DNA of 64,000 nucleotides, from positions 1 to 64,000 of the forward strand of contig NZ_JAFBIO010000005.1 in NCBI RefSeq assembly GCF_021531255.1. The letters run 5' to 3'. Numbering within the stretch: the stretch's first letter is position 1; each line of letters opens with the position of its first letter. The translations under genes were made by a program, and so were the position numbers. Below are positions 25,629-48,230 of this stretch, one piece after another. The notes under the pieces are model-generated. The model was not told the origin of the DNA. It made no database searches and saw nothing but the letters and a program-made list of their open reading frames with translations. The stretch is from Allofournierella massiliensis (GTDB lineage: Bacteria > Bacillota > Clostridia > Oscillospirales > Ruminococcaceae).

Positions 25629-26025
25629 TAAGGAAAGAAAACGGGAGTTAACAACGAGTCTTTCCCTGCAAATGTTTTGACCACTGCCTTTTGGGGCAGT
25701 CAAGGCCATACGGACAGCCGGGTCAAAAGCCGATCGGCAACTTGGTTTGCCTTATTGATTGAGTTAAAAGCTCAAATTTTATAAGTTGGTTCCTTTATAA
25801 CCAGTGTGCGCCCCACACAAAACTTGTGAAACGGTCAATAAGAGTAGTAAAAGTAAATCGTTTGCTATATAGACTCGAACCTGTCCATTCCCTTTTTCTT
25901 ATGCCGCGCGTCCCCGGTTTCCCGCCCTGATTCTGCCCGGCGGGGTCCTGATTCCTGACGTAGCAATACGAAAAACGCAAGCGCATGTGAGGCCAGCCGC
26001 CCCTCATGCGCTTTTTCTTTTGCTC
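25629..26025 (+). ncRNA. Candidate structured RNA or long regulatory leader upstream of the polyamine operon
   Basis: There is no coding frame between the promoter at 25595 and speD at 26061, but many exact complementary segments are present. AAGGAA (25630-25635) pairs with TTCCTT (25790-25795). TTTTGACC (25675-25682) pairs with GGTCAAAA (25721-25728), with ACTGCC/GGCAGT (25683-25688, 25695-25700) inside. GCCGATCGGC is at 25729-25738, and CAACTT (25738-25743) pairs with AAGTTG (25783-25788) around a TTGAG/CTCAA hairpin. Further small hairpins are GTGTG/CACAC (about 25804-25818) and CCCGCC/GGCGGG (about 25921-25944). A strong terminator closes it 41 bases before speD. It does not match the lysine, SAM, ykkC, 6S, tmRNA or RNase P signatures I can recall. 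It could be a riboswitch-type attenuator or a free-standing RNA. Confidence 0.5.
25979..26020 (+). terminator. Intrinsic terminator just upstream of speD
   Basis: Stem AAGCGCATG..GAGG with CCTCATGCGCTT (two-base bulge on the left arm), then TTTTTCTTT. It could be the expression platform of the speD leader or the end of a separate RNA. Confidence 0.85.
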
Positions 26026-43626: not shown

Positions 43627-45345
43627 ATGCCCTGCGAATTCCGATTTTTGATCACGGCGCCGCACCCGGCTCTGCTGCCCCAGGTGGCCAGGGCCCTGCA
43701 GGCGTATACCGACCAGGATTTCCAGGCTAGATATCCCCGCCTTTGGGCTGTTTATGACAGATTGATGCGGTACAGCAAAGAGAAATCCCCCCGGGAGGAT
43801 CGGAAGATCCTGCGCTTTTTCCGGGTGGCCGGCGGCCTGGTGAACTGGCTGCTGGGCCTTTTTCTGCTGCTGCCCACCACCCTGGCGCTGGGAGAATGCT
43901 TCTTTTTGTTTCTGGTGGGGGCGATCGCTTTTCTGGCGGGCAATATGGCCCTGTGGAAATTTGCCCGGCGGCTGCTGGGGATCCTGAGCCTGGCGGCGTG
44001 CGCTCTTTGCCTGTTTGGGGCGGTGAGCAGTCCGGAGCAGCTGGGCCGGCTGGGCGTTTTGAGTGTGGTGGAGCTGATCGTGGGCCTGCGGGCCCTTCTG
44101 TTCCGCCGGCAAAAGGAGGACCGGTTTGAGCGGTCGGCCCGGCTTTTGCTGGAACAGCTGAGCAAAAATCCGGAGCAGAGCGCGGAGGTCCGGGTGGACG
44201 GGGAGGGGCTGTGGCTGCCGCCCCAAGCCGAGGGGGAAGAACCTCGGCAGCTGCCGTTCGGGCAGATCCGCTGCCTGGTGCGCGCGCCGGAACTCTATAT
44301 GATCGTCTGGCGGGATCAGGTGATGCTTCTGCCCAAAAAGAGCCTGGTACAGGGCGACCCGGCCCAGCTGGAAGAACTGCTGGCGGCTCAGCCCGGCTGC
44401 CTGAAAATCTGGATCTCACCCAAGAAAAGGAGCCGCCCGCCGGGCGGCTCCTTTCTGTTTTGCAAAAGCATATGTGGGGGGATGGCCTGTCACGACTGGG
44501 CAGGCAAAAAGGATTCAGGGTTCCAGTTTGGGGGCAAGATAGCCCTCGGCGCAATAGATGGCGCCCACCGGATTGTTGGCCAGAGCCCGGTCCTTGACCA
44601 CCAGGGTGGTGACCAGGGCATCGGAAAATTTGGCGAAGAGGGCGTCATGCCCCACGCAAAGCCCCAGGGAGATATTCAGCTGGGTGTGCTGGCTGTTCAG
44701 CAGCATGGCCTGGGCCACCGGGTTGCACATGGCCTCGAAGGAGCGTTCCGGTCGTACCCGGTACTGGCCGGGAATGCCCGCCTCGCTCTTGTCGATACCG
44801 CCGGTCTTGCAGATCACCGAGACTACCTCGAACCCGTGCCGGCGAAGCAGGCTGTCCACAATTTTGGCCTCTTTCCGAAGGCCATAGCAGAAGGCCATGC
44901 CCAGCCGGGTATAGCCCAGCTTCTTGGCAAACTCGATGGTTTCCCGCAGGCGGGGCCATTCCCCATAGCCTTCCGCCTCCACAATGCAGCTCTGGATATA
45001 AAAATCCTGGTAGGCCGGCTGGCTGTAAACCGCAAAGGCCTTTTGCATCTGGTCGGCCTGGCGCATGGGGCAGTTGGCGGGCATTTTGGAATGATCCTGC
45101 TGATAACAGGCGTGAATGGCACACTGAGCACAGCTGTACATGGGGAATACCTCCTTCGGAATATGGCCGGCAGGGAAAGGGGATACCTCTGCCCCGCATC
45201 GGTGCGTTCTTGTTATCTCCAGTATAGCAAGCCGGGGGCGGCGGGGCAACGGATGCCCGGGTTTAAAGGGAAAAAACGCGAAAAAATACAGAACGGTAAA
45301 TTTTTTTTGAACGCCCTTGACAGAAACCGGGTGCTGCCCGTATAA
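43627..45345 (+). CDS. YcxB-like membrane protein; reading frame lacks a stop at its expected end
   Basis: Residues about 1-265 form a coherent protein: a cytoplasmic N-terminus, two or three hydrophobic segments (about 72-90, 93-108 and 118-135) and a YcxB-like C-terminal domain (from about 165) ending V-M-L-L-P-K-K-S-L-V near 239. The natural end should be near 44425, where a perfect bidirectional terminator hairpin begins. Instead the frame stays open through the hairpin and for another 300 codons, which are only the antisense of the DUF1847 gene. If transcription ends at the hairpin, the mRNA has no stop codon. Either a base is wrong near the end or this is a genuine non-stop gene. The coding value of everything past 44425 is very doubtful. 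Start ATG at 43627 behind AGGAGGTG. Confidence 0.6.
   Translation: MPCEFRFLITAPHPALLPQVARALQAYTDQDFQARYPRLWAVYDRLMRYSKEKSPREDRKILRFFRVAGGLVNWLLGLFLLLPTTLALGECFFLFLVGAIAFLAGNMALWKFARRLLGILSLAACALCLFGAVSSPEQLGRLGVLSVVELIVGLRALLFRRQKEDRFERSARLLLEQLSKNPEQSAEVRVDGEGLWLPPQAEGEEPRQLPFGQIRCLVRAPELYMIVWRDQVMLLPKKSLVQGDPAQLEELLAAQPGCLKIWISPKKRSRPPGGSFLFCKSICGGMACHDWAGKKDSGFQFGGKIALGAIDGAHRIVGQSPVLDHQGGDQGIGKFGEEGVMPHAKPQGDIQLGVLAVQQHGLGHRVAHGLEGAFRSYPVLAGNARLALVDTAGLADHRDYLEPVPAKQAVHNFGLFPKAIAEGHAQPGIAQLLGKLDGFPQAGPFPIAFRLHNAALDIKILVGRLAVNRKGLLHLVGLAHGAVGGHFGMILLITGVNGTLSTAVHGEYLLRNMAGRERGYLCPASVRSCYLQYSKPGAAGQRMPGFKGKKREKIQNGKFFLNALDRNRVLPV
44426..44460. terminator. Bidirectional terminator between the YcxB-like and DUF1847 genes
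   Basis: A near-perfect palindrome AAAGGAGCCGCCCG-C-CGGGCGGCTCCTTT; plus-strand tail CTGTTTT, minus-strand tail TTTTCTT. Confidence 0.85.
44515..45141 (-). CDS. DUF1847 cysteine-rich protein
   Basis: 208 residues from the ATG at 45141 (GAAGGAGG eight bases upstream). The start M-Y-S-C-A-Q-C-A-I-H-A-C begins a cysteine cluster that continues with N-C-P-M-R, resembling a metal or Fe-S site. The rest includes R-L-G-M-A-F-C-Y-G-L, C-K-T-G-G-I-D-K, M-C-N-P-V-A-Q-A and L-G-L-C-V-G-H-D, conserved marks of DUF1847. The function is unknown; the cysteines suggest a redox or metal-binding role in anaerobes. It is convergent with the YcxB-like gene. Confidence 0.9.
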   Translation of the reverse strand: MYSCAQCAIHACYQQDHSKMPANCPMRQADQMQKAFAVYSQPAYQDFYIQSCIVEAEGYGEWPRLRETIEFAKKLGYTRLGMAFCYGLRKEAKIVDSLLRRHGFEVVSVICKTGGIDKSEAGIPGQYRVRPERSFEAMCNPVAQAMLLNSQHTQLNISLGLCVGHDALFAKFSDALVTTLVVKDRALANNPVGAIYCAEGYLAPKLEP

Positions 45346-45346
45346 T
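45317..45346 (+). promoter_or_regulatory. Sigma-A promoter of the CNNM/CorC leader transcript
   Basis: TTGACA (45317-45322), 18 bases, TATAAT (45341-45346). Transcription would start near 45353, giving a leader of about 270 bases before the gene at 45627. Confidence 0.85.
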
Positions 45347-45401
45347 CTGAAATTGAATTGAGCGTTAATATTTTGTAAAGGAGCGAAAAGGAACTACTTT
45401 T

Positions 45402-45566
45402 ATGGAAGACGACAGCGATAGTAACAATCCTTGCCATCATCCGTCCATTTCTATCCGTGTAAATAGGGCATGCCTGCGTTCTGCTCAAAGTACGGCGGGC
45501 GTGCTTTTTTGCGCCTGTTTTTGGGTACGCTCCAGTCCGCCGGGCCGGGCGCTGACGCCGCCCTGA
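45402..45566 (+). CDS. Leader ORF with an acidic N-terminus upstream of the CNNM/CorC gene
   Basis: ATG at 45402 lies eight bases after AAAAGGAA, a good ribosome site, within the leader of the transcript from 45317. The first codons read M-E-D-D-S-D-S-N-N-P, strikingly acidic and then proline-containing; the frame continues to 45566 (54 residues), running through a terminator hairpin at 45468-45510. Acidic or proline-rich nascent starts destabilise ribosomes when Mg2+ is low, as established for the E. coli mgtL leader, and the gene downstream belongs to a Mg2+-transport-linked family. A regulatory peptide is therefore more likely than a functional protein. Inference only; no homologue is recalled. 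Confidence 0.6.
   Translation: MEDDSDSNNPCHHPSISIRVNRACLRSAQSTAGVLFCACFWVRSSPPGRALTPP
45468..45510 (+). terminator. Attenuator hairpin inside the leader ORF of the CNNM/CorC gene
   Basis: GCATGCCTGC (45468-45477) pairs with GCGGGCGTGC (45495-45504) in ten pairs including three G-U, directly followed by six T. It lies between the promoter and the gene, so readthrough must be regulated for the gene to be expressed. Confidence 0.75.
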
Positions 45567-45626
45567 TGCCGCGCCGGGAAACAAAAAGAAAGAAACATAC
45601 CTACTTACAGGAAGGATTTTAGATTT

Positions 45627-46874
45627 ATGGGTACGAATGCAAGTTATATATTGGTTCTGGCGGCGCTGGTCATGATGTCCGCCTATTTCTCCGCTACCGA
45701 GACCGCTTTTTCTACTGCCAACCAGATCCGGCTGAAGAATATGGCCGATGACGGCAACCGCCGGGCCCGTCTGGCTCTGCGCATGCTGGAAAACTACGAT
45801 ACTCTGCTTTCCACCATCCTCATCGGCAACAACATCGTGAACATCGCCTCGGCCAGCCTGGCCACCGTGATCTTTGTGCAGTATTTCGGCGACGCGGGCG
45901 TGTCCCTGTCCACTGCTGTCATGACCATTGTGGTGCTGATCTTCGGCGAAATCTCCCCCAAAAGCCTGGCCAAGGAAGCTCCGGAAAGCTTCTCCCTCTT
46001 CTCGGCTCCCATCCTGCGGGCCTGCAGCATCATCCTCACCCCCTTCAACTTCTTGTTTGCCCAGTGGAAAAAGCTGCTCTCCAAGATGTTCCGGGTGAGC
46101 GGCGACCGGGGCATCACCGAGGAAGAGCTGATCACCATGGTGGGTCAGGCTGCCCAGGAGGGCGGCATCGACGCCCGTGAGGAAGAGCTGATCTGCAGCG
46201 CCATTGAGTTTGATGACCTGGAAGTGACCGACATCCTCACCCCGCGGGTGGACATCGTGGCCATCAGCGCCGAGGACACCGCCGAGCATATCCGCGAGGT
46301 CTTCCAGGAGAGCGCCTATACCCGTCTGCCCGTGTATAAGGACAGCGTGGACAATATCATTGGCGTGATCCATCTGAAGGACTTTTATAAGATCGGCAAG
46401 GCCGGCAGCGTTTCCGAAATTATGAAGCCGGTCCTGTTTACCGCCCAGACCACCAAGATTTCCAGCCTGCTCAAGCGGCTGCAGAACGCCAAGAGCCATC
46501 TGGCCGTGGTGGTGGATGAGTACGGCGGTACCCTGGGTATCGTGACCCTGGAAGATATTCTGGAAGAGCTGGTGGGCGAGATCTGGGACGAGCACGACGA
46601 GGTGGTCAAGGAATTCGAGACCGTTTCCGAAAACGAATACCGGATCCTGGGCAGCGCCAGCCTGGAAAAAACCTTCCGCCTGCTGGAAGTAAAGATGGAG
46701 GCCGAGCAGGCCACCGTCAGCGGCTGGGTGAGCGATATGCTGGGCCGCATCCCCGAAAAGGGCGATACCTTTACCTGCGAAAACCTGAAGGTGACCGTGC
46801 TGAAGGTGAGCCTGCACCGGGCGGTGGAGGTCAAGGTGAATATCCTGCCCCCCGAGGAAGAAACCGAAGAATGA
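45627..46874 (+). CDS. CNNM/CorC (hemolysin-like) family transporter, DUF21-CBS-CBS-CorC_HlyC
   Basis: 415 residues. The DUF21 membrane domain (about 1-170, four hydrophobic segments) shows S-A-Y-F-S-A-T-E-T-A-F and G-N-N-I-V-N-I. A CBS pair follows (about 195-320, with V-T-D-I-L-T-P-R-V-D and V-V-D-E-Y-G-G-T-L-G-I-V), then the CorC_HlyC domain (about 335-415). Relatives move or sense Mg2+ (Staphylococcus MpfA, Bacillus YhdP, archaeal and animal CNNM). CBS domains probably bind ATP. Start ATG at 45627 with CAGGAAGGA upstream. Expressed from a leader with an acidic uORF and an intrinsic terminator; a strong terminator follows. Confidence 0.94.
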   Translation: MGTNASYILVLAALVMMSAYFSATETAFSTANQIRLKNMADDGNRRARLALRMLENYDTLLSTILIGNNIVNIASASLATVIFVQYFGDAGVSLSTAVMTIVVLIFGEISPKSLAKEAPESFSLFSAPILRACSIILTPFNFLFAQWKKLLSKMFRVSGDRGITEEELITMVGQAAQEGGIDAREEELICSAIEFDDLEVTDILTPRVDIVAISAEDTAEHIREVFQESAYTRLPVYKDSVDNIIGVIHLKDFYKIGKAGSVSEIMKPVLFTAQTTKISSLLKRLQNAKSHLAVVVDEYGGTLGIVTLEDILEELVGEIWDEHDEVVKEFETVSENEYRILGSASLEKTFRLLEVKMEAEQATVSGWVSDMLGRIPEKGDTFTCENLKVTVLKVSLHRAVEVKVNILPPEEETEE

Positions 46875-46899
46875 TCCGGCGCCTTCGGGCGCGCAAAGG

Positions 46900-46929
46900 G
46901 CCGGCCCCCATGGGGGGCCGGCTTTTTTT
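46900..46929 (+). terminator. Intrinsic terminator of the CNNM/CorC gene
   Basis: GCCGGCCCC-CATGG-GGGGCCGGC followed by seven T. Confidence 0.93.
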
Positions 46930-46948
46930 GCGCCGCCGGAAAAAATAC

Positions 46949-46977
46949 TTGACTTCGCCCCTTTAAAGCGTTAAAAT
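46949..46977 (+). promoter_or_regulatory. Sigma-A promoter of the DAHP synthase attenuator unit
   Basis: TTGACT (46949-46954), 17 bases, TAAAAT (46972-46977), about 40 bases before the leader peptide start. Confidence 0.75.
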
Positions 46978-47017
46978 TCAGATAACCTGAATGCTTCCGG
47001 ATGGGAGGAAACTTTCC

Positions 47018-47110
47018 ATGTACTTTACCGGCGTTGAGTACCGCGGCTATCTGGGCTTTTGCTATTATTATGGCAAGGGCCTGTTTCGCCGCGTTCTGCT
47101 ACGTCTCTGA
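47018..47110 (+). CDS. Tyr/Phe-rich leader peptide of the DAHP synthase gene
   Basis: 30 residues with a GGGAGG ribosome site nine bases upstream. Six tyrosines (positions 2, 8, 11, 16, 17 and 18, the last three in a row as F-C-Y-Y-Y) and three phenylalanines make 30% aromatic residues. It is followed by a strong terminator 36 bases past its stop and then by the first enzyme of aromatic amino acid synthesis. This is the layout of a classical transcription attenuator: when charged tRNA-Tyr (or tRNA-Phe) is short, the ribosome stalls in the tyrosine run and the terminator does not form. The peptide itself should have no other function. Confidence 0.85.
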   Translation: MYFTGVEYRGYLGFCYYYGKGLFRRVLLRL

Positions 47111-47145
47111 GTAAAACGGGAAAGCCAACCGAAGCTTGTCCGTAC

Positions 47146-47178
47146 CGGGGGCCCGCACACGCGGGCCCCCGTTTTTTT
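47146..47178 (+). terminator. Attenuator terminator upstream of the DAHP synthase gene
   Basis: Perfect 11-bp stem CGGGGGCCCGC / GCGGGCCCCCG with an ACAC loop and seven T, between the leader peptide and the enzyme gene. Confidence 0.93.
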
Positions 47179-47216
47179 GTCCCCGAACCGAATCTGACAG
47201 AAAAGAGGAAACTGAC

Positions 47217-48230
47217 ATGATCATTATCCTGAAACAGAACGCTCCCCGGGCCCAGATCGATGCCTTTTGTGAAGAACTGCGGGGGATGGGTTTTTCCATC
47301 AATGACAGCCAGGGCGCCGAGACCCATATCCTGGGCCTGATCGGTGATACCAAATCCATTGCGGAAAGCTGGGTGCTGGCCAATCCCCTGGTGGAGACCT
47401 GCCGCCGGGTCAGCGAGCCCTACAAAAAGGCAAACCGGAAATTCCACCCGGATGACACGGTGGTGCAGGTAGGCGATGTAAAGATCGGCGGTGGGAACTT
47501 TGCGGTGATGAGCGGTCCCTGCAGCGTGGAAAGCGAGGCTCAGATCGTGGAGGTAGCCCGTCGGGTGCAGAAGGCGGGGGCCAGCCTGCTGCGGGGCGGC
47601 GCCTTCAAGCCCCGCACCTCCCCCTACAGCTTCCAGGGGCTGCGGGCCGAAGGGCTGGAGCTGATGCGCCATGCCCGGGCAGCCACCGGCCAGCCCATCG
47701 TCACCGAGCTGATGAACACCGAGCACCTGCCTCTGTTTGAGGATGTGGATATGATCCAGATCGGGGCGCGCAATATGCAGAACTTTGAGCTGCTCAAGGC
47801 GGTGGGCCGACAGAAAAAGCCGGTGCTTCTCAAGCGGGGGCTCAGCGCCACCCTGGAGGAATTCGTCATGAGCGCCGAATACATCATGGCCGAGGGCAAC
47901 GAGCAGGTGGTGCTCTGCGAGCGGGGTATCCGCACCTTTGAAAAGAGCATGCGCAACACCCTGGATATTTCGGCGGTGCCCATGCTGAAAAAGATGACCC
48001 ACCTGCCGGTGATCATTGATCCCAGCCATGCGGCGGGCCTTTCCTGGATGGTGGAACCCCTGGCCAAGGCGGCGGTGGCTGTGGGGGCCGACGGACTGAT
48101 GATCGAGGTGCACGACAACCCGGCCAAGGCCCTGAGCGACGGCGCCCAGAGTCTGGACCCGGACCAGTTCGACGCCCTGATGGCTCAACTGCGGCCCGAG
48201 CTGGAATTCTTCGGCAAGACCCTGAACTGA
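47217..48230 (+). CDS. aroF: 3-deoxy-7-phosphoheptulonate (DAHP) synthase, class I-beta with N-terminal regulatory domain
   Basis: 337 residues from the ATG at 47217 (AGAGGAAA upstream), almost exactly the length of the Thermotoga enzyme. Residues 1-70 form the ferredoxin-like regulatory domain that binds Tyr or Phe. The barrel follows: M-S-G-P-C-S-V-E-S, L-R-G-G-A-F-K-P-R-T-S-P-Y-S-F-Q-G, K-R-G-L-S-A-T-L-E-E and D-P-S-H-A-A-G, with metal ligands Cys, His, Glu and Asp in place. It condenses PEP and erythrose-4-phosphate. Controlled at two levels: feedback on the protein and the Tyr/Phe leader attenuator upstream. The gene symbol is a convention; aroG or aroA are also used for this class. Confidence 0.95.
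   Translation: MIIILKQNAPRAQIDAFCEELRGMGFSINDSQGAETHILGLIGDTKSIAESWVLANPLVETCRRVSEPYKKANRKFHPDDTVVQVGDVKIGGGNFAVMSGPCSVESEAQIVEVARRVQKAGASLLRGGAFKPRTSPYSFQGLRAEGLELMRHARAATGQPIVTELMNTEHLPLFEDVDMIQIGARNMQNFELLKAVGRQKKPVLLKRGLSATLEEFVMSAEYIMAEGNEQVVLCERGIRTFEKSMRNTLDISAVPMLKKMTHLPVIIDPSHAAGLSWMVEPLAKAAVAVGADGLMIEVHDNPAKALSDGAQSLDPDQFDALMAQLRPELEFFGKTLN

Follow-up and report, generated by a model that had tools for sequence, protein, structure and literature searches.

The window, by which we mean the whole 64,000-nucleotide stretch of Allofournierella massiliensis DNA analysed here, contains a gene for a CNNM/CorC-family membrane protein that is preceded by a short reading frame with an acidic start and an embedded terminator. 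Such a leader raises the question of whether its translation controls the gene and, if so, what signal it reads. The original prediction proposed that the progress of the ribosome through the leader decides whether the terminator forms, which would provide a Mg2+-responsive attenuator. We consider it probable, at roughly 0.6, that the locus is a ribosome-occlusion transcription attenuator that reads Mg2+ through the loss of ribosomes at the acidic start.

Organization of the leader locus

The features of the locus are listed in Table 1. The promoter, the ATG, the frame opening with MEDDSDSNNP and the ten-pair terminator inside this frame are all found as originally described, and the identity proposed for the downstream gene is borne out by its Pfam domains. 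Transcription probably starts near 45353, and no other promoter-like site was found ahead of the CNNM gene on the + strand of the scanned region (44500–47500). The exact ribosome site of the leader is uncertain because the AAAGGAG is 18 nt from the ATG and the AAGGA, at about 9 nt, is weaker. Codons 2–6 of the leader encode Glu, Asp, Asp, Ser and Asp. The terminator stem includes two G-U pairs and is directly followed by TTTTTT, and the hairpin has a folding energy of -21.3 kcal/mol. The covariance model R1 matches positions 45390–45515 with 63.4 bits, a match by construction since the window belongs to its training set. The closest solved relatives of the gene product are CBS-domain hemolysin/CorC and CNNM chains, and the protein is a probable divalent-cation exporter, with Mg2+ as the likely substrate.

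Table 1. Features of the leader locus in the window.
Feature	Position	Strand	Basis
Promoter TTGACA-18-TATAAT	45317..45346	+	12/12 consensus match
Candidate ribosome-binding sites of the leader	AAAGGAG 45377-45383; AAGGA 45388-45392	+	Read from the sequence
Leader reading frame MEDDSDSNNPCHHPSISIRVNRACLRSAQSTAGVLFCACF... / MEDDSDSNNPCHH..., 54 codons	45402..45566	+	ORF listing
Intrinsic terminator within the leader frame	45468..45510	+	Stem 45468-45477 / 45495-45504, T6 45505-45510
CNNM/CorC-family membrane protein, 415 aa	45627..46874	+	Pfam CNNM, CBS, CorC_HlyC

Other features of the window were also noted. A promoter-like site and a small frame rich in Tyr and Phe, MYFTGVEYRGYLGFCYYYGKGLFRRVLLRL (47019), are located at 46949–47230 (+), and an 11-pair terminator (47146–47171) separates this frame from a DAHP synthase gene; the arrangement looks like a classical Tyr/Phe attenuator. 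Positions 25678–25733 (+) match the streptococcal sRNA SpF59 in Rfam (RF02440) with 70.4 bits.

Recurrence of the leader upstream of CNNM genes

Compared with its counterpart in the other species of the genus, the leader shows 92% identity, and the counterpart frame in one genome (G001) has equal length and the same stop. The first 49 nt are identical between two species, compared with differences at 25% of the four-fold sites of the CNNM gene; by our own estimate about three synonymous changes are expected in this stretch, so its invariance is not significant alone and selection at the RNA level is not claimed. Between the same two species, the sole change in the ten-pair stem converts a U-G pair to U-A. 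A DNA similarity search with the leader returned nothing beyond this other species of the genus, and conservation was therefore sought upstream of CNNM genes.

The same arrangement reappears upstream of CNNM genes whose proteins share approximately 50–60% identity with that of the window. The leaders of these relatives include MQDDADGDAAPYHSITNV and MDDGDPGGCREDRDFEA (both given to the stop), MDSDSSNEETANNC..., MPDSEDGDTSPCHS... and MDSDDGDYPANTE..., each with a terminator inside or after the frame, and the carriers with names include Hungatella hathewayi and uncultured Roseburia and Lachnospiraceae. A second class of leader, found in Intestinimonas, Pseudoflavonifractor and their relatives, begins with MDEPPP or MDEPPL. 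The original prediction had named the conservation of the ATG, the acidic run and the hairpin in relatives as its check, and this holds widely.

A fixed rule (ribosome site, acidic start and a terminator 30–80 nt past the start codon) was applied to 149 non-redundant regions upstream of CNNM genes in Clostridia; many of the genomes in the analysis are metagenome-assembled. It is satisfied by 33 of these regions, compared with 1 of 1490 dinucleotide shuffles and none of 149 reverse complements, and by none of 16 more distant CNNM genes. Judged by these counts, the arrangement of acidic leader and terminator is not due to chance. Asp plus Glu make up 37% of residues 2–10 of the leaders and Pro 12%, and the corresponding values for the CNNM protein starts are 10% and 4%; the leaders were partly selected for an acidic start, for which the 1/1490 shuffles serve as the control. 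Acidic or acidic-Pro residues in the first codons, as in leaders of intrinsic ribosome destabilisation (IRD; mgtL type), are thus present. The leader starts were set with a simple rule, supplemented by manual picks where this rule missed; the hand-picked leaders do not affect the count of 33/149 and are included in the counts for 39 leaders given below.

Many CNNM genes of the same clade have no such leader. In Lactonifactor longoviformis, and likewise at the loci L006, L007, L042 and L062, the frame with its acidic start is present but no clear terminator is seen. L006, L007 and L062 are, with L065 and L075, Ruminococcus-type CNNM loci in which the leader combines an acidic start with a conserved DDxxxPY(R/H) motif and again shows no clear terminator; control in these loci may act at the level of translation instead. 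The Asp-Glu-Pro-Pro start is found at several places of the CNNM tree; its independent origin is not pressed, as L064, L108, L159 and L165 have no clear terminator. With respect to codon usage, Ser in codons 2–10 is encoded by AGT in about 60% of cases at leader and CNNM starts alike, compared with 9% across the CNNM genes. This shared bias may favour initiation, or perhaps hints that the leader was copied from the start of the gene.

The leader frame is open up to the terminator arm

To examine the relation of the frame to the hairpin, we used 39 leaders with less than 85% mutual identity, the selection of which demanded only eight open codons. The leader frame is free of stops up to the 5´ arm of the terminator in all 39 (605 codons); in the two remaining frames, 24 and 8 of the leaders are open that far. 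Past the arm, the stops per codon are 0.052 in the leader frame, 0.052 in frame +1 and 0.039 in frame +2, so that by this measure the leader frame decays like non-coding DNA. The distance from the start codon to the arm is 39–74 nt in 38 of the 39 leaders (median 57; one outlier at 128). The leader stops occur from about 12–13 nt ahead of the arm onward; many coincide with the arm and others lie well beyond it. Since none is earlier, a ribosome at any such stop, or on its way to it, would cover the arm.

A second set of 28 leaders, which lies outside the training set of the model, comprises P-type ATPase leaders and leaders from another CNNM subfamily and from other families of the class. Its leader frame reaches the arm in 28/28, and the other frames do so in 13/28 and 0/28, although this set is not wholly independent because it was found through nucleotide similarity to the first. 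The length and C-terminus of the leader peptides are not conserved across relatives. On these comparisons, what is preserved is that the ribosome gets as far as the 5´ arm, and not where the peptide ends. The locus thus has the anatomy of an occlusion attenuator, with a leader frame and ribosome site between the promoter and the structural gene and an intrinsic terminator that overlaps or directly follows the frame (39/39 and 28/28). The proposal that ribosome progress decides terminator formation is strongly supported by this rule.

Hairpin covariation and RNA folding

Across related leaders, compensatory changes affect 11 of the 13 pairs of the terminator hairpin, and all measures of covariation exceed those of all 500 shuffles and the slid controls. 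The main leader class has no conserved helix other than the terminator. Ahead of the arm, the RNA folds no differently from shuffled sequences (mean z -0.09). There is also no sign of an antiterminator: upstream RNA pairs with the 5´ arm a little less strongly than it does after shuffling (mean z +0.41). Folded as a single sequence, the whole leader of the window is no better than shuffles (z 0.36). No competing fold of the mgtL kind lies upstream of the arm, and the leader would therefore be IRD-like in action yet is not a homologue of mgtL.

No Rfam family, including M-box, yybP-ykoY and NiCo, matches the window leader or 14 relatives, and the original prediction was right to see no resemblance to the M-box or yybP-ykoY elements. 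The one Rfam match among the relatives, a cobalamin riboswitch, is on the other strand of L041 and is unrelated; matches to RsaD and mir-103 in the leader fall far below the gathering scores and were dismissed.

In the Asp-Glu-Pro-Pro leaders (L040, L054, L055, L060 and L119–L125), the AAGGAG ribosome site is able to pair with a CCTCC in the Pro codons, the two being separated by a conserved GGTGAGCC stretch. The predicted extra helix near the start of these leaders could hide the leader's own ribosome site, a possible additional control of leader translation.

Genes behind the leader and taxonomic range

To determine which genes follow the leader, R1 was searched against 245 genomes of the order, which gave 37 matches at E<=1e-4. 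Of these, 22 lie upstream of CNNM genes of the window type (partly training sequences), 7 upstream of P-type ATPases and 8 upstream of a second CNNM subfamily. The best solved-structure match of the ATPase behind the leader is the Listeria Ca2+-ATPase lmo0841. Further matches were found in 391 genomes of the class: 15 in total, of which 12 precede window-type CNNM genes, 1 precedes the second subfamily, 1 lies at a contig end and 1 is probably false. Among 249 genomes across the phylum, R1 matches the window itself and nothing else, and the element is therefore seen in this class only, at this sensitivity. No mgtE- or corA-type importer lies behind the R1 matches whose neighbours were examined. 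The P-ATPase and second-CNNM genes behind the same leader strengthen the link to cation export, and with it the cation-transport connection first proposed for the window.

The P-ATPase loci L200, L204, L205, L208, L209, L215 and L217, from several families of the order, have near-identical acidic leaders (MDDADSSDADRSN...) before Ca2+-type P-ATPase genes, with the stop codon at the 5´ arm of the terminator. Match L224 (2.5e-4) precedes a permease-like membrane gene. Weak matches with E>1e-4 near unrelated genes (L226, L228, L230, L231 and L232) and the match L249 at 7.6e-5 were taken as false, and matches to the model R2 (L257, L258) look like ordinary terminators.

A proposed model for cation-dependent attenuation and its alternatives

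Control of attenuation by translation is strongly supported by the comparisons above, and the model built on it is as follows. RNA polymerase would soon make the terminator after leaving the promoter and, left alone, would stop before the CNNM gene. A leader ribosome that starts at 45402 and reaches or passes the 5´ arm would leave the hairpin unable to fold, and the CNNM gene would be transcribed. The default would thus be OFF and translation would turn the gene ON, since ribosomes keep the hairpins of intrinsic terminators from forming (PMC5021804). Acidic residues that are adjacent or one apart early in the chain cause ribosome stalling or release (PMC11282234); mgtL and mgtQ exploit such residues, mgtL for Mg2+ control (PMC11282234, PMC8092293). 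The first ten codons of the leader are acidic, or Asp-Glu-Pro-Pro in other lineages, and would encode a nascent peptide of the type known to destabilise ribosomes under Mg2+ shortage. Since low Mg2+ promotes stalling or release on an acidic start, ribosomes would drop off ahead of the arm at low Mg2+ and the exporter would be OFF; at ample Mg2+, they would pass and the exporter would be ON. This polarity, which the original prediction had not specified and which we infer from the anatomy of the leader, would be sensible for an exporter and agrees with the induction of Salmonella corC and mgpA by high Mg2+ (PMC12421838).

One target class is of the Ca2+ type, and Mg2+ may therefore not be the sole signal. 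Ribosome-polymerase coupling is loose in Bacillus, so a pause of RNA polymerase may be needed. For the class as a whole, the odds slightly favour a widespread family of nascent-chain divalent-cation sensors in Clostridia, in which leader and terminator would use Mg2+-dependent ribosome survival to switch on, at high divalent cation, the exporters of Mg2+ (CNNM) and of Ca2+ (P-type ATPase). Such a sensor would mirror the control of the importer MgtA by mgtL.

The same occlusion attenuator could instead respond to Ca2+ or some other ion, to the overall capacity for translation, or to pH or osmotic stress, the acidic start merely making the leader a weak point for ribosomes. The frame-to-arm rule requires no particular signal, and the ATPases behind the leader are closest to a Ca2+-ATPase; however, the targets are cation exporters only and two types of destabilising motif share one place, which suggests a cation-linked property of the ribosome. 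We regard this alternative as unlikely, though as the likeliest of those considered here. A trp-type attenuator sensing charged tRNA-Asp, tRNA-Ser or tRNA-Pro would account for the runs of Asp and Ser codons near the leader start and for the preference there for AGT (60%, against 9% gene-wide). But this bias is equally present at the CNNM genes' own start, there is no antiterminator, another leader class has Glu-Pro-Pro instead, and the targets are CNNM and P-type ATPase genes rather than amino-acid genes. With two types of destabilising motif in one position, destabilisation by the nascent chain is a better fit than the sensing of starvation through particular codons, and the trp-type reading is very improbable.

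The leader might also encode a small functional protein, or its terminated transcript might serve as a regulatory RNA; the terminator would then be an ordinary transcript end that lets some polymerases through to the CNNM gene. The recurring acidic starts, several lineages of which share a DxAP(Y/C)H-like motif, are compatible with this reading. It is nevertheless improbable: the distance from start to arm is constrained, the length, C-terminus and post-arm frame are not conserved, and the stretch from the terminator to the CNNM gene shows no promoter of its own. RNA-based regulation is common for cation transporters, and a metal- or ligand-binding riboswitch with an incidental short frame might be considered on that ground; with no Rfam match, no conserved helix in the main class except the terminator and pre-arm RNA that folds like shuffles, it ranks just below the trp-type attenuator in likelihood. 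That a chance frame overlies an ordinary terminator would fit the unremarkable folding of the single leader (z 0.36), but is refuted by the conservation tests, namely the frame rule, the covariation, the R1 matches and the count under the fixed rule against shuffles, and is scarcely tenable.

The ribosome-occlusion attenuator with cation-dependent ribosome loss would have wider consequences. Ribosome destabilisation by acidic nascent chains is so far a regulatory sensor from a few enterobacterial leaders, and a Clostridia-wide attenuator with the opposite output would, if true, make it a general way of sensing divalent cations and explain the regulation of CNNM/CorC exporters in these Gram-positives. 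A leader held in common with Ca2+-type ATPases would also be an independent genomic argument for cation export by these CNNM proteins. The design is minimal, with one short frame and one hairpin, and is therefore directly testable in vitro.

Comparison with known systems

In pyrBI (pyrL), a translating ribosome blocks an intrinsic terminator hairpin, no antiterminator is needed, and UTP is sensed through the pausing of RNA polymerase. The window leader would share the occlusion and the dispensable antiterminator; in contrast to UTP and pausing, the variable would be the survival of the ribosome on an acidic chain. The leaders of mgtL/mgtA and mgtQ/mgtB in enterobacteria are similar in having a short frame with acidic start codons upstream of a Mg2+-linked transport gene, and ribosome loss on the leader is their switch, as proposed for the window leader (PMC11282234, PMC8092293). 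However, full translation of mgtL exposes a Rho-dependent terminator, so that ribosome loss turns the importer ON, and mgtQ acts on translation, whereas the window leader has an intrinsic terminator at or inside the frame, no alternative fold was seen, and ribosome loss should turn the exporter OFF.

The CorC-domain efflux genes mgpA (yoaE), with its leader yoaL, and corC, with a destabilising N-terminus, are induced by high Mg2+ in Salmonella/E. coli, and translating the leader, or the gene's own start, raises expression (PMC12421838). In contrast to the window leader, yoaL overlaps the mgpA upstream region and affects mgpA translation; no terminator or attenuation is described, and the mechanism is said to be unclear (PMC12421838). 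The antibiotic-responsive attenuators of Gram-positives, bmrB-bmrCD (PMC4191407) and mef/mel (PMC4335068), are reported to have a leader frame and an intrinsic terminator upstream of an efflux gene, with an antibiotic acting on the leader ribosome as the signal, whereas in the window leader the advancing ribosome should by itself prevent termination, and the analysis detected no antiterminator. Searches of the open-access literature found no description of this leader, only the enterobacterial precedents and other attenuators. Ribosome-mediated attenuation is already known as a type of mechanism, as is ribosome destabilisation as a type of sensor; what appears to be new is the way in which the two are combined, together with the polarity, the targets and the taxa.
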